In this document: positions 49,646 to 59,423 of the stretch, piece by piece
Position numbering within the stretch: the first letter of the stretch is position 1
Layout of the letters: every line of letters starts with the position of its first letter
Made by a program: the position numbers and the translations under genes
The notes under the pieces: generated by a model
The model's database searches: none
The model's input: the letters and a program-made list of their open reading frames with translations, nothing else
Told to the model about the DNA's origin: nothing
DNA from: Arthrobacter ulcerisalmonis
GTDB lineage: Bacteria > Actinomycetota > Actinomycetes > Actinomycetales > Micrococcaceae
NCBI RefSeq assembly: GCF_900609065.1
Contig: NZ_UXAU01000009.1
Location: forward strand, 310,001-374,000
Length of the DNA stretch: 64,000 nt
Reading direction: 5' to 3'

Positions 49646-49718
49646 GCCCCCATCGTCTAGCGGCCTAGGACACCGCCCTTTCACGGCGGCGGCACGGGTT
49701 CGAATCCCGTTGGGGGTA
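49646..49718 (+). tRNA. tRNA-Glu (TTC)
   Basis: 73 nt. Acceptor GCCCCCA pairs with TGGGGGT (one G-U); anticodon loop CTTTCAC in a CCGCC/GGCGG stem; T loop GGTTCGAATCC. CCA not encoded. Confidence 0.95.
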
Positions 49719-49808
49719 CGCAAGGAACTGGTCTGGCAGGCAGAAATTGTCTGGTAAGCTAGAAGCCTTGAAAAAAGCAGTAGCGATACTGCTGAAGCAA
49801 GAAATCAA

Positions 49809-49882
49809 GGCCCTGTAGCGCAGTTGGTTAGCGCGCCGCCCTGTCACGGCGGAGGTCGCGGGTTCAAGTCCCGTCAGGGTCG
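49809..49882 (+). tRNA. tRNA-Asp (GTC)
   Basis: 74 nt. Acceptor GGCCCTG with CAGGGTC; anticodon loop CTGTCAC; T loop GGTTCAAGTCC. CCA not encoded. Confidence 0.95.
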
Positions 49883-49930
49883 CTCTGATAGTTGAAAGCA
49901 GTTTCAGCTGTCATGGTGACTAGTCACCAA

Positions 49931-50006
49931 GGCTCTGTAGCTCAGTTGGTAGAGCGTTCGACTGAAAATCGAAAGGTCACCGGATCGACGCCGGTCGGAG
50001 CCACCA
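49931..50006 (+). tRNA. tRNA-Phe (GAA)
   Basis: 76 nt. Acceptor GGCTCTG with CGGAGCC; anticodon loop CTGAAAA between TTCGA and TCGAA; the 3' CCA is encoded (50004-50006), unlike its two neighbours. The T loop reads GATCGACGCC. Confidence 0.95.
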
Positions 50007-50011
50007 CTGGG

Positions 50012-50043
50012 AAGCATCAGTTCACACGAACTGGTGCTTTTCT
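50012..50043 (+). terminator. Intrinsic terminator of the tRNA cluster
   Basis: Arms AAGCATCAGTTC (50012-50023) and GAACTGGTGCTT (50028-50039), one G-T pair, four-base loop, then TTCT. Confidence 0.75.
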
Positions 50044-50202
50044 GCTTAACACACCCCTTCTGAACGTTGCGATCCGGCATCGTTGTCAGCTTTGCGCCGC
50101 TTGGGCACGACAATGCCCTTGCCGTTTCCGTAGACTCCAAGGCTGCACCTTGACCATAGAAAGCAGACTGAGCGTTGCATAGCGCCTAAGGAGAAACTGG
50201 GA

Positions 50203-52068
50203 ATGTCCGCCACACCAGGCACACGGACCATCAGCCAACCGAACGAGGACCAACCCCCGAAAGCGGGAGAACCGGGGCATGCGCCGCCGGGGAACGGCGG
50301 CTCAAAACTTGCCCCCTGGGTTTTTTGGCCCGCCGCGGCCGTCATCCTGATTTTTGTCCTGTTCGCCACGATTTTCCCGAGCACGGCCACCGATGCCTTT
50401 GGGGCCATTCAGACCAACGTCATTAAATGGTTCGGCTGGTATTACGTTGCTGCCATTGCCCTGTTCGTCGCGTTCGCACTCTGGATTGGGCTGAGCCGCT
50501 ACGGCGACATCAAACTGGGTAAAGACGAGGACGAACCTGAGTTCTCCGTCATGTCGTGGTTCGCTCTGCTGTTCGCTGCCGGAATGGGCATTGGCCTGGT
50601 CTTCTTCGGCGTCGCAGAGCCACTGAACCACTTCGCCTCGCCTCGACCCGGCGTCGAGGGTTCCCCCTTCGCCTTGGCACAGCAGGCACTGACGCAGACG
50701 TACCTCCACTGGGGCCTGCACGCCTGGGCCATCTACGTGGTGGTGGGCGTGTCCATTGCTTATGCCGTGCATCGGAAGGGCCGCCCAATTTCCATCCGCT
50801 GGACGCTGGAGCCGCTGCTTGGCAAGAAGCGGGTCACGGGCGGTTGGGGCAACCTGATCGATGTGGTCGCGCTGGTGGGCACGCTGTTCGGTGTCGCCAC
50901 GTCGCTGGGCTTAGGTGTCTTGCAGATCTCGGCTGGCCTGGACCACGCAAACATTGTCCAGGCCACCACCATGACGCAGATCGGACTCATTCTCTGCATC
51001 ATCACCCTGACCATCGTCTCCGTGGTCTCCGGCGTGGGAAAGGGAATGAAATGGTTGTCCAACATCAACTTGATGCTGGCCGCCGGACTGCTTCTGGTGG
51101 TCCTCTTTACCGGACCCACGTTGTTCCTGCTTCGCGAGTTCGTGCAATCGATCGGTAACTACCTGCAGAACGTTGTGGGCTTGACCTTTAATACTCTGGC
51201 ATTCTCCGGGGCCGAAGGCGAGGCCTGGCAGGCGGCCTGGACCACGTTCTACTGGGGCTGGTGGATCTCCTGGGCGCCGTTCGTGGGGATTTTCATCGCC
51301 CGCATCTCGAAGGGACGCACGGTTCGGCAGTTCGTGGCCGGCGTTCTGCTGGTTCCCACCATGGTGGGTTTCCTGTGGTTCGCAGTTTTGGGCGGCGCAG
51401 CCATTCACCGGGAACTCTTTGGCTCGGGCGGGCTGGTGGTCGACGGCGCAGTGGACACGGAAGGTGCGCTTTTCTCGCTCCTCGGTGACCTGCCCGGCGG
51501 TGCTGTCCTCACCATCGGGGCCATCATCCTGATTGCCATCTTCTTCATCACCTCCGCCGACTCCGGGGCGCTGGTGATGGGCATGATTTCCACGGGCGGA
51601 GATGTGGAGCCGAAGAACTGGCTCCGAATTTTCTGGGCCCTCGCAGCAGCAGCTGCCGCAATCGCGTTGCTGCTCGCCGACGGATTGCAGGCGATTCAAA
51701 CGGCAGCCATCCTCACTGCGGTGCCCTTCAGCGTGGTCATCATCCTGATGTGTGTCGCCACGGCCAAAGCATTCCACCTTGAACACGCCGCGCTGCTTCG
51801 CGGGCAGCGGAAGGTCGCCCGTGATCAATTGACGGCACACGTCACCGAACATGTGCAGGACTCTGTTCACGATTCGGTGCAGGAACACTACGAGGAGCAT
51901 CTCGCTGATCGGGTCCAGGACCAGATCGCGGAGGCTGTCCACGCTCAGCTCAGTGACGCATCGGAGCCGCAGGGCGGGCCGGGGTCTACAGGTGAAACCC
52001 GACCGGACCCTCGACCGGAAGCTGCCCCCGGTTCTTCAACGGGTTCGGACACGGGCCGGCGCCGCTGA
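50203..52068 (+). CDS. BCCT-family osmolyte (betaine/choline/proline) transporter
   Basis: 621 aa, AAGGAG before ATG 50203. Twelve membrane helices with BCCT signatures: FALLFAAGMGIGLVFFGVAE, the Trp-rich WTTFYWGWWISWAPFVGIFI and ARISKGRTVRQF. It imports compatible solutes, driven by sodium or protons. The N-terminal 40 residues and the C-terminal 90 residues are cytosolic; the latter (EHVQDSVHDSVQEHYEEHLA, then VQDQIAEAVHAQL) predict a charged helix, which in BCCT proteins acts in osmosensing. Confidence 0.92.
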   Translation: MSATPGTRTISQPNEDQPPKAGEPGHAPPGNGGSKLAPWVFWPAAAVILIFVLFATIFPSTATDAFGAIQTNVIKWFGWYYVAAIALFVAFALWIGLSRYGDIKLGKDEDEPEFSVMSWFALLFAAGMGIGLVFFGVAEPLNHFASPRPGVEGSPFALAQQALTQTYLHWGLHAWAIYVVVGVSIAYAVHRKGRPISIRWTLEPLLGKKRVTGGWGNLIDVVALVGTLFGVATSLGLGVLQISAGLDHANIVQATTMTQIGLILCIITLTIVSVVSGVGKGMKWLSNINLMLAAGLLLVVLFTGPTLFLLREFVQSIGNYLQNVVGLTFNTLAFSGAEGEAWQAAWTTFYWGWWISWAPFVGIFIARISKGRTVRQFVAGVLLVPTMVGFLWFAVLGGAAIHRELFGSGGLVVDGAVDTEGALFSLLGDLPGGAVLTIGAIILIAIFFITSADSGALVMGMISTGGDVEPKNWLRIFWALAAAAAAIALLLADGLQAIQTAAILTAVPFSVVIILMCVATAKAFHLEHAALLRGQRKVARDQLTAHVTEHVQDSVHDSVQEHYEEHLADRVQDQIAEAVHAQLSDASEPQGGPGSTGETRPDPRPEAAPGSSTGSDTGRRR

Positions 52069-52218
52069 CCCTCGACGGTTGGCATAGCCGCCCGCCGCCG
52101 TCGAACGTTCCCAAGGACTCAGGAGCGGAAGGGTTCCAACAAACCTGGCCCCCAGCTCATCCGACACATCATCGCAGGCTAGCGATAGGGTAAAGAGCAA
52201 CAGAAGGGGGAGTTCCTG

Positions 52219-52698
52219 ATGGAGTACCCGAACGCGCGGCCAGGTCAGAGCCCAGCGGCCGCCACCACCGATATTGCTGCCCTCCCCGACCCTGCCCTGG
52301 CACCTGAGCTGGGGCAGGCCGTGGGCAGGACGGTTATCGCCGAAACGGCCGTGGCGAAGGTCGCGGGCATTGCCGCACGGTCCGTCGCAGGAGTCCATTC
52401 CCTGGGGTCCGCCCCGTCGCGAGCGCTGGGCGCCATCCGCGACGCCGTCGGCAGCACCGACCATGCCTCCGGGGTCCGCGCGGAGGTCGGCGAGACCCAG
52501 GTGGCCGTGGATATCAATCTGGTGGCATCCTACGGTTCGCCGTTGCACTCCTTGGCGAATCAGGTGCGTGCAGCCGTGTACGGAGCCATCACCGACCTGG
52601 TGGGGTTGCAGGTCATCGAGGTCAACATCGAAGTCACGGACGTCTACGTTCCGCCGCCCGCCAAGACCACTACCCCTGATCGGGAGGCCCTGCAATGA
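52219..52698 (+). CDS. Asp23/Gls24 family envelope stress protein
   Basis: 159 aa. Core of about 110 residues: TVIAETAVAKVAGIAARSVA, VGETQVAVDINLVASYGSPL, ALANQVRAAVYGAITDLVGL-like helix and VIEVNIEVTDVYVP. Asp23 proteins coat the inner membrane face through AmaP and respond to alkaline and cell-wall stress. First gene of a five-gene string whose starts overlap (four-base overlaps). GGGGGAG precedes the ATG. Confidence 0.9.
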   Translation: MEYPNARPGQSPAAATTDIAALPDPALAPELGQAVGRTVIAETAVAKVAGIAARSVAGVHSLGSAPSRALGAIRDAVGSTDHASGVRAEVGETQVAVDINLVASYGSPLHSLANQVRAAVYGAITDLVGLQVIEVNIEVTDVYVPPPAKTTTPDREALQ

Positions 52699-52886
52699 AT
52701 TTCACCTTGGCTGGCATCGCAGTCGGCGCTTTCGTAGCGTTCATGTCTCTTCAATTCGGCCTGTGGGGCTTCCTCATCTCGCTGATCTTCATGGCAATTG
52801 GCGCTGTTCTGGGCCGCGCCGCCGAGGGCAAACTTGACCTTCGCGGCGTCCTCGACGCCCTCACCGGCAGGCGCTCGTCCTCATGA
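52695..52886 (+). CDS. Small DUF2273-like membrane protein
   Basis: 63 aa with two hydrophobic helices (FTLAGIAVGAFVAFMSLQFG, LWGFLISLIFMAIGAVLGRA) and a basic tail. Size and position in an Asp23 operon fit DUF2273. Start and stop overlap the neighbours by four bases. Confidence 0.8.
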   Translation: MNFTLAGIAVGAFVAFMSLQFGLWGFLISLIFMAIGAVLGRAAEGKLDLRGVLDALTGRRSSS

Positions 52887-53254
52887 GCGTCTCCGTGTCG
52901 CCCGATCAGGCCTTCAACGGCCACAACCGCATCAGTACGCAGGCGTTGACCAGCCTCGCCAAAGTAGCTGCGGCCCAAGCCCTGGGCGTTGATGCCCAAG
53001 AGGTGCGGGCAGATTGGACGGACGACGACGGCCTCCTGGCTCTCTCGATCCTGGCACCCATCAGCGTCCCGCCGTTGCGCGCTGCCTCGGCTGCGCGCGC
53101 CAGTGAACTCAGCAGCGGCTCCATCTGGGACCGCACCGTGCAGGCCAAGGCGCTCATCCTGGAATCAGTCAGCGAACTCAGCGGCGCGAGCTTGAGCAGG
53201 GTGGACATCCGGATCAGTGGCGCCAAGATCAGCGAAGGGGAACGCGTTCGATGA
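52883..53254 (+). CDS. Second Asp23-like protein
   Basis: 123 aa, predicted alpha/beta. ISTQALTSLAKVAAAQALGV and DDDGLLALSILAPISVPPLR match the strand-helix order of Asp23 but the sequence is diverged. It overlaps both neighbours by four bases, so it is one unit with them. Role as a partner of the first Asp23 protein is inferred. Confidence 0.65.
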   Translation: MSVSVSPDQAFNGHNRISTQALTSLAKVAAAQALGVDAQEVRADWTDDDGLLALSILAPISVPPLRAASAARASELSSGSIWDRTVQAKALILESVSELSGASLSRVDIRISGAKISEGERVR

Positions 53255-53907
53255 CCAGCACGATGGACAGCGGGACCGCACGGGACGAACAGCAGGCCCC
53301 GCGAGCCGCGGCATCAGCAGGGCCGCTGCTGCGCAGGGTGGTGCGCCGCGAAACGCACTCAAACCGTGCCACGATCGCCATTATGGCGGCAGTCCTTGTC
53401 ATTTGCCTGGCCGCGTACGGGCTCCTTGAATCGGCAGTACACGCCATCGGCCAACCTCCGTGGTTGATTGATCCGCAGGAAGCGATGGAACGCATCGTTG
53501 CGTTGCCCGCAGGTATCTCGCCAGTGCTTCTTGGCGCTATCGGTGCTGTTGTGGCCATGCTTGGCTTGGTCTTTTTCTTCAATGGCGTCCTTCCCGGAAG
53601 ACGCGCCCGGCATTCCCTGACGTTGGCCAGCAACGCCGCTCCACATCACGCAGTGGTGGTGGATGACGAGGTCATCGCCTCCTCCCTGGCCCGCCGCGCC
53701 CGCTTGGCCGCGAACGTTACGCCAGCGCAGGTGATGGTAGTGGTGTCGCAGCGTCACGTCCAGGTGAATCTACGCCCCACCTCCGGCGTTCCGGTGTCGC
53801 ACGATGCCGTCCAATCTGCAGTCCAGGACGAGCTGAACCAGATGGCGTTGGTACCCAGCCCAGAAGTCCGTATCCACATCACACCGGCGGGAGTGATCGG
53901 CGCGTGA
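53251..53907 (+). CDS. DUF6286-type two-helix membrane protein
   Basis: 218 aa. Two membrane segments (AIMAAVLVICLAAYGLLESA, PVLLGAIGAVVAMLGLVFFF) followed by a soluble domain of about 95 residues (VVVDDEVIASSLARRARLAA, VVVSQRHVQVNLRPTSGVPV). The same architecture (helices then Asp23-like strand pattern) occurs in the next gene. Function unknown; part of the envelope module. Confidence 0.7.
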   Translation: MTSTMDSGTARDEQQAPRAAASAGPLLRRVVRRETHSNRATIAIMAAVLVICLAAYGLLESAVHAIGQPPWLIDPQEAMERIVALPAGISPVLLGAIGAVVAMLGLVFFFNGVLPGRRARHSLTLASNAAPHHAVVVDDEVIASSLARRARLAANVTPAQVMVVVSQRHVQVNLRPTSGVPVSHDAVQSAVQDELNQMALVPSPEVRIHITPAGVIGA

Positions 53908-54515
53908 ACAGTACACCCAGTGCCCTCAATCGGATCCTGATCATTCTCCTGGGTCTGGTGCTTCTGGCCCTCGGCCTGTCGCTCGTCGCCTTGGCTGCAG
54001 TTCCCGCGGCCGCAGCCTGGTGGCAGGCCAATACCCCCGGCGTCTGGCAGGGCCTCAACAACGCTTTCAATCAGACCCGTTTCCCGGGCCGCACCGAAAG
54101 TTGGCTCTGGATTGTGGCCGCGGTGGTCCTCCTGATCCTGATCGGGCTCATGGTGGCGTGGGTTGCGCAGCAAGGTAAGGGCAGGTCCAGCCTGCTCGCC
54201 TCGGCCTACGATCCGGGCGACGTCCCAGGGGATGTGCGCATCGGCGCGGGCGTCGCCGAACAGGCCTTGAAGCACGCACTAGCTGGCCGCCCCGACCTCG
54301 CCGGGGCCACCATTTCCACGTACAGCATCAAGGGCACGCCGGCCCTGAAGGTCAAGCTCCTGCCGCGCCAGGGCGTCGCGCCGCATCTACTCGCCGCGGA
54401 GGTATCTTCACTCCTTGAAGCGTTGGACTCGGTGGTGGGCAAGGAAACGCCAGTCCTGATCCACATCGGTGCTGGGGCCAGGGCCCGCTTTGCCCGCGCC
54501 GAAAGGGTCCGCTGA
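53904..54515 (+). CDS. amaP: AmaP-like alkaline shock response membrane anchor
   Basis: 203 aa. Two helices (ILIILLGLVLLALGLSLVAL, ESWLWIVAAVVLLILIGLMV) enclose an external loop with paired Trp residues; the cytosolic domain (DVRIGAGVAEQALKHALAGR, LKVKLLPRQGVAPHLLAAEV) resembles AmaP of firmicutes, which ties Asp23 to the membrane. Last gene of the overlap string. Confidence 0.75.
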   Translation: MNSTPSALNRILIILLGLVLLALGLSLVALAAVPAAAAWWQANTPGVWQGLNNAFNQTRFPGRTESWLWIVAAVVLLILIGLMVAWVAQQGKGRSSLLASAYDPGDVPGDVRIGAGVAEQALKHALAGRPDLAGATISTYSIKGTPALKVKLLPRQGVAPHLLAAEVSSLLEALDSVVGKETPVLIHIGAGARARFARAERVR

Positions 54516-54761: not shown

Positions 54762-56045
54762 ATGAAAACTCCGAAATTCCTACTTCCCGTAGCCACGGTC
54801 GGCGTCTTGGCCCTGACCCTTTCCGCATGTGCGGGCGGCGGCGGAACCACTGACAGTGGCGGCGGCGACGCCGCAGCAAACCTCGAGGGCCGCGGGCCCA
54901 TTACCTACGTCCAGGGTAAGGACAACAGCAACGTTGTCCGCCCCTTGGTGGATAAGTGGAATGCCGCCCACCCGAACGAGAAAGTCACGTTCAAGGAACA
55001 GACCGATTCGGCTGACCAGCAGCACGATGACCTGGTGCAGAACTATCAATCAAAGAACGCCAACTATGACGTTGCCAGCGTGGACGTCGTGTGGACGGCC
55101 GAGTTCGCGGCCAAGGGTTGGTTGCAGCCGCTCAAGGACACCATGGCAGTTGACACCTCAGCCATGCTCAAGCCCACGGTCGAGGCGGGTTCGTACAAGG
55201 GCACCCTCTACGCGGCCCCGGTGTCCTCTGACGGTGGCATCCTCTACTACCGCAAGGACCTGGTTCCCACCCCGCCCAAGACGTGGGACGAAATGATGGG
55301 CATGTGTTCCATCGCCAAGACCAACAACATTGACTGCTACTCCGGCCAGTTCAAGCAGTACGAAGGCCTCACGGTCAACGCCTCCGAGGCTATCAACTCC
55401 GCTGGTGGGTCAGTGCTGAACTCGGACGGCAAACCCAACCTGAACACGCCAGAGGCTAAGGCTGGCTTGGAGAACCTGGTTGCCGCTTTCAAGGATGGCA
55501 ACATCCCGGAACAGGCTATTACGTACCAGGAAGAGGAAAGCCGCCGGGCGTTCCAGGACGGCAACCTGCTGTTCCTGCGCAACTGGCCTTACGTGTACAA
55601 CCTCGCCAGCACTGAAGGATCGTCCAAGGTCAAGGACGTTCTGGGCATGACTGCGCTCCCCGGCAAGGACGGCCCCGGCGCCTCCTCACTGGGCGGCCAC
55701 AGTGCAGCCATCAGCGTCTACTCCAAAAACAAGGCCACCGCGCTGGATTTTGTGAAGTTCCTGACGGCCGAAGAGCAGCAGAAGTTCTTCGCCACCCAGG
55801 GTTCGCTGGCTCCGGTGCTGGGTGCCCTGTATGAGGATCAGGCACTGGTCTCCAAGCTGCCGTACCTGCCGGTCCTGAAGACCTCGATCGAGAACGCTGT
55901 CCCACGCCCGGTCACGCCGTTCTACCCGGCCGTCACCAAGGCCATCCAGGAGAATGCCTACGCAGCGCTGAAGGGCGACAAGACCGCCGAGAAGGCGCTG
56001 GCTGACATGCAGGCCTCCATCGAATCCGCTGGCGCGGGATCGTAG
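54762..56045 (+). CDS. Sugar ABC transporter substrate-binding lipoprotein
   Basis: 427 aa. Signal peptide MKTPKFLLPVATVGVLALTL with lipobox LSAC (cysteine near residue 23). The mature part is a type 1 sugar-binding protein: ITYVQGKDNSNVVRPLVDKW at the start, YDVASVDVVWTAEFAAKGWL and LFLRNWPYVYNLA. Relatives bind trehalose, maltose or similar oligosaccharides. GAGGAG lies before the ATG. First gene of the operon with two permeases and a small protein. Confidence 0.92.
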   Translation: MKTPKFLLPVATVGVLALTLSACAGGGGTTDSGGGDAAANLEGRGPITYVQGKDNSNVVRPLVDKWNAAHPNEKVTFKEQTDSADQQHDDLVQNYQSKNANYDVASVDVVWTAEFAAKGWLQPLKDTMAVDTSAMLKPTVEAGSYKGTLYAAPVSSDGGILYYRKDLVPTPPKTWDEMMGMCSIAKTNNIDCYSGQFKQYEGLTVNASEAINSAGGSVLNSDGKPNLNTPEAKAGLENLVAAFKDGNIPEQAITYQEEESRRAFQDGNLLFLRNWPYVYNLASTEGSSKVKDVLGMTALPGKDGPGASSLGGHSAAISVYSKNKATALDFVKFLTAEEQQKFFATQGSLAPVLGALYEDQALVSKLPYLPVLKTSIENAVPRPVTPFYPAVTKAIQENAYAALKGDKTAEKALADMQASIESAGAGS

Positions 56046-56052
56046 CCTAACC

Positions 56053-57093
56053 ATGGCAACCGAAGCAGGCCCGGCGTCAGCAACAAAGCTGGCGCCGGGC
56101 GGGACCCCTGGCAAGCAGGGCCCCAAAGGCGTGGGGGAAGACAAGAAGAACGCCAGCCAAGGCAGGTGGGCTGCCTGGCTTCTGGCTCCCACCGTGGTGG
56201 CACTGGGTATTGTTATCGTCTACCCGATCATCAGTGCCATCGTCATGTCGTTCCAGAAGGACGCAGGGCTGGACCCTGTAACGGGGCTCTTCGCCCCCGG
56301 CGGCCCAGCTGGTCTCCAGAACTACGTGAACTGGGTATTGCAGCAGTGTGCCTCGCCGAATGGCGGATCCGTTGCCTGTCCTCCCGGCACCCTGGGTGGC
56401 CAGTTCTGGACAGCCACTGGCACCACCTTCTTCTTCACCGTGGTTACAGTGGCACTAGAAACGGTGCTCGGTTTCTGGATGGCCATCATCATGGCCCGTA
56501 CCTTCAAGGGCCGCAGCCTGATCCGTGCAGCTGTCCTGGTTCCGTGGGCCATCCCCACGGCTGTGACCGCCAAGCTCTGGCTCTTCATCTTCGACTATGA
56601 AGGCATCGCCAACAACCTGTTCAATGTCTCCATCCTCTGGACAGGCAGCGAGTGGCCAGCGAAGTGGGCGGTGATTATTGCTGATACGTGGAAGACCACG
56701 CCGTTCATGGCGTTGCTCATCCTGGCCGGCCTGCAGATGATCCCGGCGGATGTGTACGAAGCGGCAAAGGTTGACGGCACCACCACCTGGCAGCGTTTCC
56801 GGCTGATCACGCTCCCGCTGGTCAAGCCGGCGCTCATGGTTGCTATCCTCTTCCGCACCCTGGACGCCTTGCGCATGTTCGACCTGCCGTACATCCTGAC
56901 CCAGGGCGCCAACAACACCACAACGTTGTCCATCCTGGTGATCAACCAAATCAGACAAGGGTTCAACGCGGCGGCGGCGCTCTCGACAATTACCTTTGTG
57001 ATCATCTTCCTGGTGGCGTTCATCTTCGTCAGATTCCTGGGAGCTAACGTGGTGGAGCAAAGCGGCGCTCCCAGTAAGGGGAAGAAGAAATGA
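56053..57093 (+). CDS. Sugar ABC transporter permease (MalF type)
   Basis: 346 aa, six membrane segments after a 35-residue Gly/Lys-rich N-terminus. The ATPase-contact EAA loop is YEAAKVDGTTTWQRFRLITL. Extra periplasmic loop with two cysteines (QQCASPNGGSVACPPG) between helices 1 and 2 is unusual and may form a disulfide. Overlaps the next permease by four bases. Confidence 0.9.
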   Translation: MATEAGPASATKLAPGGTPGKQGPKGVGEDKKNASQGRWAAWLLAPTVVALGIVIVYPIISAIVMSFQKDAGLDPVTGLFAPGGPAGLQNYVNWVLQQCASPNGGSVACPPGTLGGQFWTATGTTFFFTVVTVALETVLGFWMAIIMARTFKGRSLIRAAVLVPWAIPTAVTAKLWLFIFDYEGIANNLFNVSILWTGSEWPAKWAVIIADTWKTTPFMALLILAGLQMIPADVYEAAKVDGTTTWQRFRLITLPLVKPALMVAILFRTLDALRMFDLPYILTQGANNTTTLSILVINQIRQGFNAAAALSTITFVIIFLVAFIFVRFLGANVVEQSGAPSKGKKK

Positions 57094-57986
57094 GCGCAAC
57101 CACAGCCACTAGTGCTCTGCGGGCACGCCAAGACGCAGGCCGCAAGGTGGCGCAGAACAGGGAAAAGTGGGCGCAATTCAGGACCTACGTCAGCGCCGCC
57201 GTCATCCTGATCTGGTGTCTGGCACCGGCGTACTGGATGGTGGTGACCGCGTTCCGCGACGTGGGCTTCACCTACGACACCACGCCGTGGCCAACGCACG
57301 TGACGCTGGACAACTTTGCTACCGCCTTCGATACTTCGTTCGGCAACAGGTTCGGCCAGGCACTGCTGAACAGTATTTTCATCGGTGTGGTGGTTACGGC
57401 CGTTTCGCTGCTGATTGGTGTCTTTGCCGCTTACGCACTGGCTCGGCTGAACTTCCGCTTCAAGTTCCTGGTTCTGGGTTTCATCCTGGGCGCTTCGATG
57501 TTCCCGGGCGTAGCCCTCATCACCCCGCTGTTCCAGCTGTTCACCAACATCGGCTGGATGGGCACGTACCAAGCGCTGATCATCCCGAGCATCTCGTTCG
57601 TGCTGCCCCTGACGGTCTACACGCTGACTTCATTCTTCCGCGAAATGCCGTGGGAGCTTGAAGAAGCTGCCCGCGTGGATGGCTGCACGCAAGGCCAGGC
57701 GTTCCGGAAGGTCATTATGCCGTTGGCCACGCCGGCCATCTTCACCACGGCAATCCTGGCCTTCATCTCCTCCTGGAATGAATTCCTGATTGCCAGTCAG
57801 CTCTCCAGCGATGCGACGCAGCCGGTCACGGTGGCAATCGCCAGCTTCGCAGGAGCGCAGCCCAACCAGATCCCCTACACGGCCATCATGGCGGCAGGCA
57901 CCATCGTCACCATTCCGCTGGTGATCCTGGTCTTGGTGTTCCAGCGCAAGATTGTGGCTGGCCTGACGGCAGGCGCCGTGAAGTGA
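57090..57986 (+). CDS. Sugar ABC transporter permease (MalG type)
   Basis: 298 aa, six membrane segments; EAA loop EEAARVDGCTQGQAFRKVIM. Partner of the MalF-type permease. The stop overlaps the start of the small membrane protein by four bases. No ATP-binding subunit is encoded here; a shared MsiK-type ATPase elsewhere is expected (known for actinobacteria). Confidence 0.9.
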   Translation: MSATTATSALRARQDAGRKVAQNREKWAQFRTYVSAAVILIWCLAPAYWMVVTAFRDVGFTYDTTPWPTHVTLDNFATAFDTSFGNRFGQALLNSIFIGVVVTAVSLLIGVFAAYALARLNFRFKFLVLGFILGASMFPGVALITPLFQLFTNIGWMGTYQALIIPSISFVLPLTVYTLTSFFREMPWELEEAARVDGCTQGQAFRKVIMPLATPAIFTTAILAFISSWNEFLIASQLSSDATQPVTVAIASFAGAQPNQIPYTAIMAAGTIVTIPLVILVLVFQRKIVAGLTAGAVK

Positions 57987-58234
57987 CGGAGAACGTCCAC
58001 CCATCGCGGAAGTCGAGGCCAGCCGGAAACGGCCGTCGGCTGGCTCGCTCCGGCGAGGACTTCGACATCCTCATTGGCATCCTTGGCTTTTGGGCCCTGG
58101 TGCTGGTGGTCGTCACCATCTGGGCCGAAGTCACGGACCAGTCGGGGCTCTGGTGGGCCCTTGGCCTGCTGGCAACCGTCCTGGCCCTCGCTGGCTTGGT
58201 GCGGATCCGGAAGAAGCTCCCGGAACGCAGATGA
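57983..58234 (+). CDS. Small membrane protein of the sugar ABC operon
   Basis: 83 aa. A basic N-terminus (RKSRPAGNGRRLARSGED) and two hydrophobic segments (FDILIGILGFWALVLVVVTI, WWALGLLATVLALAGLV), then a basic tail. No family recognised; overlap with the permease gene shows that it belongs to the operon. Confidence 0.65.
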   Translation: MTENVHPSRKSRPAGNGRRLARSGEDFDILIGILGFWALVLVVVTIWAEVTDQSGLWWALGLLATVLALAGLVRIRKKLPERR

Positions 58235-58244
58235 CGTGGTGGTC

Positions 58245-58277
58245 CTCGCCGCGGGTTCGTCATGAACCTGCGGCGAG
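58245..58277 (+). terminator. Hairpin after the sugar ABC operon
   Basis: 14-base arms CTCGCCGCGGGTTC and GAACCTGCGGCGAG with one mismatch around a five-base loop, 10 bp after the stop. No T tract. Confidence 0.55.
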
Positions 58278-58355
58278 GCTGGCGGTTCAACGCCGTCGTG
58301 AAAATATGGGGGCTGGCGCGGGATTTTCGCGCTCAAGGAGGCGGCGAGGTAGACC

Positions 58356-59423
58356 ATGGGACGCGGTACAGAGAGATCCCTCCGCGGTGGCCACAGCGGC
58401 ATCAGTATTGAAGATGTTGCTGCTGCCGCCGGGGTGTCGACCGCAACCGTCTCCCGCGCAGTGCGGGGGCTGCCGAAAGTTTCCCCGGCTACCAGGGAAA
58501 AAATTCTTGGAGTGGCGGCCGATCTCGGCTATGTAGCCTCCTCTTCGGCGTCCGGGCTGGCCACCGGACGGACCAAAACCATTGGCGTGCTTGCACCGTT
58601 CGTGAGCCGATGGTTCTTCTCCAAGGCCATTGAGGGGGCCGACCGGGAGTTGCACGCCCGGCAGTACAACCTCTCCCTGTTCAACCTGGGCGGGCACGGT
58701 AGCAACCGGGAACGCCTGTTCAGCAAAACCATGGTCTACAAGCAGATCGACGCCCTGCTGGTTCTCTGTATGGCGCTCACGCCGGAGGAACTCGACCATC
58801 TGCAGAAGATCGACATTCCGCTGATGGTGGTGGGCGGCCACGTGGAGGAGTGCGCGTATATCGGCATCGATGACTACGCGGCGGCCTCGACGGCGGTCCA
58901 GCACCTCATCGACCTGGGGCACCGAGACATCGCTCTGCTCCATGGCGACGACGAAACGGACCTGAACTTCGATGTTCCCCGCGTCCGGATCCTTGCTTTC
59001 AAGGACGTGATGGCCGCAGCCCAGTTGGCCGTGCAGGATGAATGGGACGAATGGGGAGACTTCACGCTCCACAGCGGTCAGGCCGCATTCAGACGGCTGT
59101 GGAGCCAGCCCGGCCCCAAACCAACGGCCATTTTCTGTGCGTCAGACGAGATGGCCATGGGCGTGGTGTTCGAGGCGCCGTTGCACGGCGTCCGGATTCC
59201 AGAGGACCTCTCCGTGGTGGGCATCGACAACCACGAGTTCGCCGCAGCCCTTGGACTCACCACCGTGGGCCAACGCCCGGACGAGCAGGCCGAGCTTGCC
59301 ACGAAGATGCTGCTCGACGAATTGGATGGCCATCTCGGATCGGTGAAATCCGCCGTCGCCCCGCACGAGCTGATTATCCGCCGCACCACGGCAGCACCAC
59401 CGGGCCGCCAGCGGCTGAACTAG
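58356..59423 (+). CDS. LacI-family transcriptional regulator
   Basis: 355 aa. HTH and hinge at 10-65 (ISIEDVAAAAGVSTATVSRA, VRGLPKVSPATREKILGVAA), then a sugar-binding core (TIGVLAPFVSRWFFSKAIEG ... GIDNHEFAAALGLTTVGQRP). It lies directly after the ABC operon in the same direction and probably recognises the palindrome at 54651-54670. A GAGG-type ribosome site precedes ATG 58356. Confidence 0.92.
   Translation: MGRGTERSLRGGHSGISIEDVAAAAGVSTATVSRAVRGLPKVSPATREKILGVAADLGYVASSSASGLATGRTKTIGVLAPFVSRWFFSKAIEGADRELHARQYNLSLFNLGGHGSNRERLFSKTMVYKQIDALLVLCMALTPEELDHLQKIDIPLMVVGGHVEECAYIGIDDYAAASTAVQHLIDLGHRDIALLHGDDETDLNFDVPRVRILAFKDVMAAAQLAVQDEWDEWGDFTLHSGQAAFRRLWSQPGPKPTAIFCASDEMAMGVVFEAPLHGVRIPEDLSVVGIDNHEFAAALGLTTVGQRPDEQAELATKMLLDELDGHLGSVKSAVAPHELIIRRTTAAPPGRQRLN

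Follow-up and report, generated by a model that had tools for sequence, protein, structure and literature searches.

A conserved five-gene Asp23/AmaP-like module and its sigma factor-linked sister modules in Arthrobacter ulcerisalmonis

Background

What does a run of five overlapping Asp23-related genes do in Arthrobacter ulcerisalmonis, and does it belong functionally with the osmolyte transporter next to it? The 64,000 bp stretch of the genome analyzed here (contig NZ_UXAU01000009.1, positions 310,001 to 374,000; hereafter the window) carries at 52219-54515 a module of five open reading frames (ORFs), A to E, all on the + strand and each starting within the last four bases of the one before it. 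A gene for a BCCT transporter (50203-52068; PF02028, E 3.9e-184) ends 150 bp upstream. A sequence-only reading of the locus had described the module as one translational unit, larger than the asp23-amaP pair of firmicutes, and had proposed that it forms an osmotic or envelope-stress lattice at the membrane.

The Asp23 family is described as widespread in Gram-positive bacteria (PMC5437119), and the molecular function of Asp23 has been called unclear (PMC6954212). In Staphylococcus aureus, AmaP is reported to anchor Asp23 at the membrane, Asp23 to be able to form filaments, and loss of either protein to induce the cell-wall stress response (PMC6954212). Deletion of asp23 has also been associated with wall thinning and increased autolysis (PMC11350273). 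Based on the analyses below, we think it reasonably likely that the window module is the housekeeping copy of an actinobacterial membrane-anchored lattice of the Asp23/AmaP type, devoted to envelope homeostasis. The envelope part of the original proposal is thus retained as the best reading, and the osmotic part is not.

A conserved five-gene arrangement

Gene A (52219..52698) encodes an Asp23 family protein of 159 amino acids, B (52695..52886) a two-helix membrane protein of 63 amino acids resembling DUF2273, C (52883..53254) a diverged Asp23-type protein of 123 amino acids, and D (53251..53907) a protein of 218 amino acids with two membrane helices and a DUF6286 domain. Gene E (53904..54515), which starts with GTG, encodes an AmaP-like protein of 203 amino acids with two membrane helices and a domain modeled as Asp23-like. 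The stop and start codons overlap as ATGA at the A/B (52695..52698), B/C (52883..52886) and C/D (53251..53254) junctions and as GTGA at the D/E junction (53904..53907), a layout that fits the single translational unit first proposed.

A search with protein A covered 59 genomes, its own and 36 same-genus relatives among them, and returned matches in 40. Thirty-five of the 36 relatives have a match and 34 have an ortholog of the window gene; the exceptions are G032, with no match, and G027, whose match belongs to another type of module (module II, described below). All 34 same-genus loci keep the five genes in the identical order, with the four-base overlap at 135 of 136 junctions. The one exception lies in L047, where the D frame looks broken; L078 likewise has a broken gene A. 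Median ratios of nonsynonymous to synonymous substitution (omega) for A to E are 0.12, 0.10, 0.22, 0.23 and 0.22, respectively (pairs with a synonymous divergence Ks < 1.5), indicating purifying selection on all five genes.

The arrangement extends beyond the genus. A scan of a genome collection yielded at least 460 confirmed candidates, and the best 80 of 460, a sample biased to close relatives, were taken as named loci. By the profile thresholds set here, all five genes are present in order in 66 of these 80, and A stands alone in 9. All four overlaps are kept in 49 of the 66 five-gene loci (240/264 junctions), and the five-gene order is found in loci of the Micrococcaceae, Microbacteriaceae and Promicromonosporaceae. 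Given the conserved gene order and overlaps, the low omega values and the counts among named loci, the arrangement is not due to chance. The module does exceed the firmicute pair in size, but this does not set it apart: five genes are the norm in the closest relatives that were found, this genome being nothing special in that respect, and the staphylococcal cluster is already reported to have four genes, opuD2-amaP-DUF2273-asp23 (PMC7698506). Among the open-licence papers listed by our literature searches, none on a five-gene actinobacterial module was seen. Two Arthrobacter-like five-gene modules come from records with distant labels, L121 (Vibrio cholerae 35D) and L114 (an Acidobacteria metagenome-assembled genome), and probably represent mislabeled or contaminated contigs; L121, together with L109, whose D is in two pieces, was left out of the alignments and the tree.

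Protein families, topology and folds

The identities first given to A and D are borne out by curated cut-offs: A scores 80.4 bits against a PF03780 cut-off of 28 (E 1.6e-22), and D scores 40.1 bits against a PF19803 (DUF6286) cut-off of 35 (E 5.4e-10). Protein B misses the PF10031 (DUF2273) cut-off, with 21.5 bits against 25.4 (E 2.3e-4); its paralog in module II, 70% identical to it, passes with 29.6 bits. Topology was assessed with a crude hydropathy scan, in which the window sequence is part of every count and from which proteins D and E of L047 and protein A of both L059 and L078 were left out (broken frames). B is 63 amino acids long in 35/35 sequences, of which 29 have two hydrophobic segments and 6 have one, in agreement with its description as a two-helix protein. 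Of 33 A sequences, 32 have no such segment; D has two in 34/34, and E has two in 31/34 and three in the other 3. In D and E, the second helix is followed by basic residues, which flank it toward the C-terminal domain. The basic flank of a membrane segment lies on the cytosolic side (the positive-inside rule), which would place the C-terminal domains of both proteins in the cytosol, at the inner membrane face.

Protein C of the window has no Pfam match and does not reach the PF03780 cut-off, and only one of the 54 members of its alignment matches that family at E <= 0.01. We therefore call it Asp23-like rather than an Asp23 family member by curated cut-off. Alignments restricted to the genus were too shallow for profile comparison (probability 1.9 for A against C), and wider ones were used instead, leaving out L125 from C (a 28-amino-acid fragment), L155 from E and, from D, 11 of the 55 filtered sequences. 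With these, the profile of C matches that of A with probability 83 and E 8.5e-6 over 108 columns, the best of 20 shuffles reaching probability 1.6. The C profile finds matches in 32 of 246 genomes in a search of the phylum, and in its own genome it also retrieves the Asp23 proteins of sister modules I and II (E about 9e-5). The counterpart of C in module I falls squarely within PF03780 (2.4e-12), which supports, by position, the view of window C as a diverged Asp23, as had been suggested. The structure model of C (predicted local distance difference test, pLDDT, 87) has the order alpha-beta-beta-alpha-beta. A single hydrophobic stretch exceeds the threshold in 30 of 35 C sequences, and none does in the other 5, the window among them. 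In the window protein, residues 51-68 correspond to this stretch; the model folds them as a strand and the first part of a helix, and for this reason C is read as soluble, the crude scan alone not being decisive.

Protein E has no Pfam match near any cut-off. Against the AmaP model NF033218 it scores 27 bits, and D scores 23 bits with a wider coverage of it, both short of the equivalog cut-off of 55; at E <= 0.01 the model is matched by 49/54 members of the E alignment and 25/45 of the D alignment. The name AmaP given to E by the sequence-only reading is accordingly softened to AmaP-like, D matching the model about as well. The structure model of E (pLDDT 84, predicted template modeling score 0.58) shows membrane helices followed by a domain with the same alpha-beta-beta-alpha-beta core order as C, an Asp23-like core seen by model only. 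It had also been claimed that D and E share two helices plus an Asp23-like domain. The two helices are present in both, and the core in E has the support of the model, but neither domain is clearly like A by profile, and a common origin of these domains with Asp23 is not claimed here from sequence.

Comparison of the models with known structures gave no Foldseek match at E <= 0.001 for either C or E. The E domain model aligns with ring-building-motif domains, including EscJ (1yj7_C; Z 8.6, root-mean-square deviation 3.5, 77 residues), PrgK (4oyc_A; Z 8.1, deviation 4.1, 77 residues) and FliF, a likeness seen at the level of structure. The Z range for these motifs, 7.3 to 8.6, is tied with other folds: the C-terminal domain of a zinc transporter (8j7u_B) gives Z 8.7 with a deviation of 2.6 over 78 residues, and OsmC proteins score equally high. 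With scores about equal, homology of the E domain to zinc-transporter C-terminal domains, OsmC or ring-building motifs was not accepted, nor was the likeness of the C model to MamM C-terminal domains, Era and tautomerases. The Z values of both models to small alpha/beta domains may reflect a common arrangement.

Sister modules linked to ECF sigma factors

PF03780 is found above cut-off at five places in the A. ulcerisalmonis genome, and reading of the flanks reveals three five-gene modules in total: that of the window and two paralogous modules, I and II. Module I lies on contig C69 (locus L012, minus strand, 7101 to 4554) and is followed by a CsbD gene; it also has beside it a divergent gene for an extracytoplasmic function (ECF) sigma factor, a partner gene and one more ORF. 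With 32.2 bits against a cut-off of 28, the partner has an accepted Asp23 match in its C-terminal part. The other sister, module II (contig C21, locus L013, 7008-9403), is followed by CsbD, the ECF sigma factor, an Asp23-matching partner and one more ORF; here the C-terminal match of the partner, 17.8 bits, is below the cut-off. The sets of ECF gene, partner and small ORF occupy L012 7290-9104 and L013 9811-11338. Asp23 proteins adjoining the sigma factor groups ECF286 and ECF292 have been reported as predicted anti-sigma factors (PMC8999054). Modules I and II resemble such loci in pairing an ECF gene with an Asp23-matching partner, and their ECF and partner genes are candidates for an Asp23-based stress circuit. 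The best-conserved protein between the window (52695-52886) and module II (L013 7589-7780) is B at 70%, in which the tail beyond the hairpin is almost the same; A comes next at 51%, and the others are at less.

Unlike the ECF-linked modules, the window module stands by itself: with the ECF, partner and CsbD proteins of its two sisters as queries, tblastn gives no match in the 64 kb at E <= 0.01. The genome holds three such modules, with ECF-linked and uncoupled forms together, which is new here. Among the named loci, an ECF gene lies within 5 kb in 33 of the 66 five-gene loci; of the 33 loci without one, 5 have a flank shorter than 5 kb, and L156 has only 342 bp after E. In a quick tree of 67 concatenated rows, the window falls in an ECF-less clade of 22 rows with a Shimodaira-Hasegawa-like approximate likelihood ratio support of 99, and the ECF label needs five changes in all. 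Loss of the ECF gene would be the simplest reading, with the caveat that the root of the tree rests on one very long branch.

The linkage raises the question of whether Asp23 proteins of this kind are regulators, which titrate or modulate the putative anti-sigma factors of the sister modules, with the window copy setting the threshold of the ECF response. The order of an ECF gene followed by a C-terminally Asp23-matching protein in both sister modules speaks for such a role, as do the predicted anti-sigma factors beside ECF286 and ECF292. We nevertheless regard it as unlikely, for the window module is present in 34/36 relatives, compared with six for module II and two for module I (one of the two cut by a contig end). 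In most relatives it is thus present without the sister modules and must do something else there.

A control of lipid synthesis at the membrane appears highly improbable. Its precedent is Bacillus subtilis YqhY, an Asp23 family protein reported to affect acetyl-CoA carboxylase (PMC5437119), and a biotin-carboxylase-like ORF, recognized on reading its translation, does lie near module I (L012 1565-3301). YqhY and YloU belong to the same family as A but to different operons, accBC-yqhY and yloU-yloV, and the same report describes the accBC-yqhY arrangement as not conserved in Actinobacteria (PMC5437119). In the window, moreover, no carboxylase-like ORF was recognized among the translations read between 49.5 and 64 kb, these ORFs having had no family search.

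Different promoter motifs for the uncoupled and the ECF-linked forms

The uncoupled state of the window module is mirrored in its upstream region. A -10-like box, TAGGGT (52186..52191, + strand), is invariant in 34/34 anchored upstream regions (33 relatives and the window; L059, in which no anchor was found, was omitted) and is located 31 to 34 bases before the ATG. A conserved ribosome-binding site follows it in window-type loci; in the window this is GAAGGGGGAG (52203..52212, + strand). The pattern of box and ribosome-binding site has a single site in the window, 52186-52212. The surroundings of TAGGGT resemble what we take to be an actinobacterial extended -10, suggesting that the window copy uses a primary-type promoter and would remain outside the ECF circuit.

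The ECF-linked loci present a different picture, both sister modules of this genome lying behind an ECF-type promoter. A loose ECF motif, GTGA[CG]G-N-[CT]GTC, is absent within 300 bp of asp23 from all 35 window-type loci of the genus, the window included, and is present upstream of asp23 in 6/7 module II loci and 3/5 of the module I-type loci read. With one mismatch allowed, the ECF pattern occurs at 9 places in the window against 5.7 expected by chance, none of them within 5 kb of asp23. Among the named loci, the loose motif is found in 23/33 ECF-linked and 3/33 other loci, with about 0.5 expected per set from shuffles, and the strict motif in 11/33 and 1/33, respectively. TAGGGT shows the reverse, with 0/33 against 16/33 and about 2 expected per set from shuffles. 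The three loci with the loose motif and no ECF gene are L156, which ends just after E, L149, a sister to ECF-linked loci, and L097, which is of the window type. A palindrome, GTGA-N6-TCAC, which we presume to be CRP/GlxR-like, is present in 7/7 module II loci (L013, L085-L090), where it sits upstream of the ECF-type promoter, and in 2/5 module I-type loci.

The BCCT transporter as a neighbor

The position of the BCCT gene invites comparison with staphylococci, and an osmotic-stress module that works with the adjoining transporter would have its model in their opuD2 cluster. In Staphylococcus xylosus the genes of the four-gene cluster, opuD2 included, are reported to be overexpressed together (PMC7698506), and in Staphylococcus saprophyticus one of two listed Asp23/Gls24 genes is reported to rise with salt (PMC8870806). 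The two layouts share an Asp23 protein, a two-helix protein of the DUF2273 kind and an AmaP-type anchor, and in this genome a BCCT gene adjoins as well. Unlike the staphylococcal cluster, however, the window module has two more components, C as a second, diverged Asp23 and D as another anchor; it begins with asp23 and overlaps its genes by four bases. Staphylococcal asp23 is reported to be under SigB control (PMC7698506), whereas the promoter-like box in the window is of another kind.

The transporter is, moreover, no conserved neighbor of the window-type module. Of the 34 relatives only L049 has it within about 6 kb upstream, and there another ORF intervenes. Three of the 80 named loci have it within 8 kb: L097, where it is directly upstream, and L100 and L101, where it is about 2.2 kb away. 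In the window, a tRNA Glu-Asp-Phe cluster lies upstream of the BCCT gene. From tRNA-Phe to the matched asp23 start the distance ranges from about 120 bp, in three relatives, to more than 4 kb, and the ORFs between them vary among relatives; no tRNA was seen in 7/34 loci. The slot bordered by the tRNA cluster (window 49646-50202), which across the relatives contains the BCCT gene, a large secreted-looking protein (in 15) or a small lipoprotein-like ORF (in 9), looks like a local hot spot. Since BCCT genes are rare near the module and the content of the slot is variable, the transporter is probably a chance neighbor, its adjacency being local to a few strains. The module also has its own promoter-like box, and in the S. 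saprophyticus report salt lowers expression of the second Asp23 gene and of the three BCCT genes on the list (PMC8870806). The staphylococcal parallel is real as anatomy and not supported as a conserved link. We consider the osmotic partnership very unlikely, and the corresponding part of the sequence-only reading is not upheld, although the transporter does lie 150 bp upstream, as it had stated.

On the other side of the module, at 54762-59423, the translations read as a sugar-type ATP-binding cassette importer and a LacI-type regulator. The binding protein of this importer is found downstream of the module in 29/34 relatives, with at least 71% identity.

A proposed membrane-anchored Asp23 layer

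When the features of the module are taken together with the work on S. aureus Asp23 and AmaP, a membrane-anchored Asp23 layer emerges as the most likely function, with the five genes probably building, in Arthrobacter-like soil bacteria, a scaffold of small proteins along the inner membrane face. A single promoter just upstream of asp23 would give a single transcript, and the ATGA and GTGA overlaps of stop and start codons would couple translation, supplying the five proteins in set proportions. A and C would be small cytosolic Asp23-type proteins, B a short membrane hairpin, and D and E two-helix anchors, each holding a further small domain at the inner membrane face. Through contacts with D, E and B, A and C may bind to this layer and polymerize into patches or filaments under the membrane, which could help to balance wall and membrane. 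The sister modules would be switched on by an ECF factor that is restrained by a putative anti-sigma factor with an Asp23-like part.

Several observations weigh against this interpretation. The parallels are drawn from S. aureus, a member of another phylum, and expression reports from actinobacteria point both ways: Asp23/Gls24 and CsbD genes of Curtobacterium are reported to rise on drying (PMC12029717), and an Asp23/Gls24 gene of Streptomyces venezuelae to fall after ethanol shock (PMC9769785). D and E are both below the AmaP cut-off, and their C-terminal domains compare poorly with A by profile, with probability 1.6 for D (best of 20 shuffles 1.1) and 4.3 for E (best shuffle 13.4). The profile search turned up no solved Asp23 structure for comparison, and a membrane segment in C at residues 51-68 is still conceivable. 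At the promoter, there is no conserved -35 box upstream of window-type asp23, a scan for the sigma-70 consensus gave no promoter, and L113-L118, basal members of the window clade, have neither TAGGGT in the scanned region nor the ECF motif.

The two forms of the module may also be connected through the layer itself. If the Asp23 layer were a stress sensor, the putative anti-sigma factors of modules I and II, with their Asp23-like parts, would dock into the standing lattice made by the window module, and a disturbance of membrane or wall would rearrange the lattice and free the ECF factor to make more of it. We regard this as quite unlikely; were it true, detection would fall to the constitutive window module, which would itself stand outside the very circuit that it feeds.

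The membrane-anchored layer would give a recurrent five-gene set of the Micrococcales, present in one genome in ECF-linked and uncoupled forms, a place in envelope homeostasis. The drying response reported for the Curtobacterium genes (PMC12029717), which are linked to the module by family name, suggests survival of drying as a candidate phenotype. With both forms in a single genome, A. ulcerisalmonis would allow a clean comparison of what the Asp23 layer does, and of whether the putative anti-sigma factors read it.

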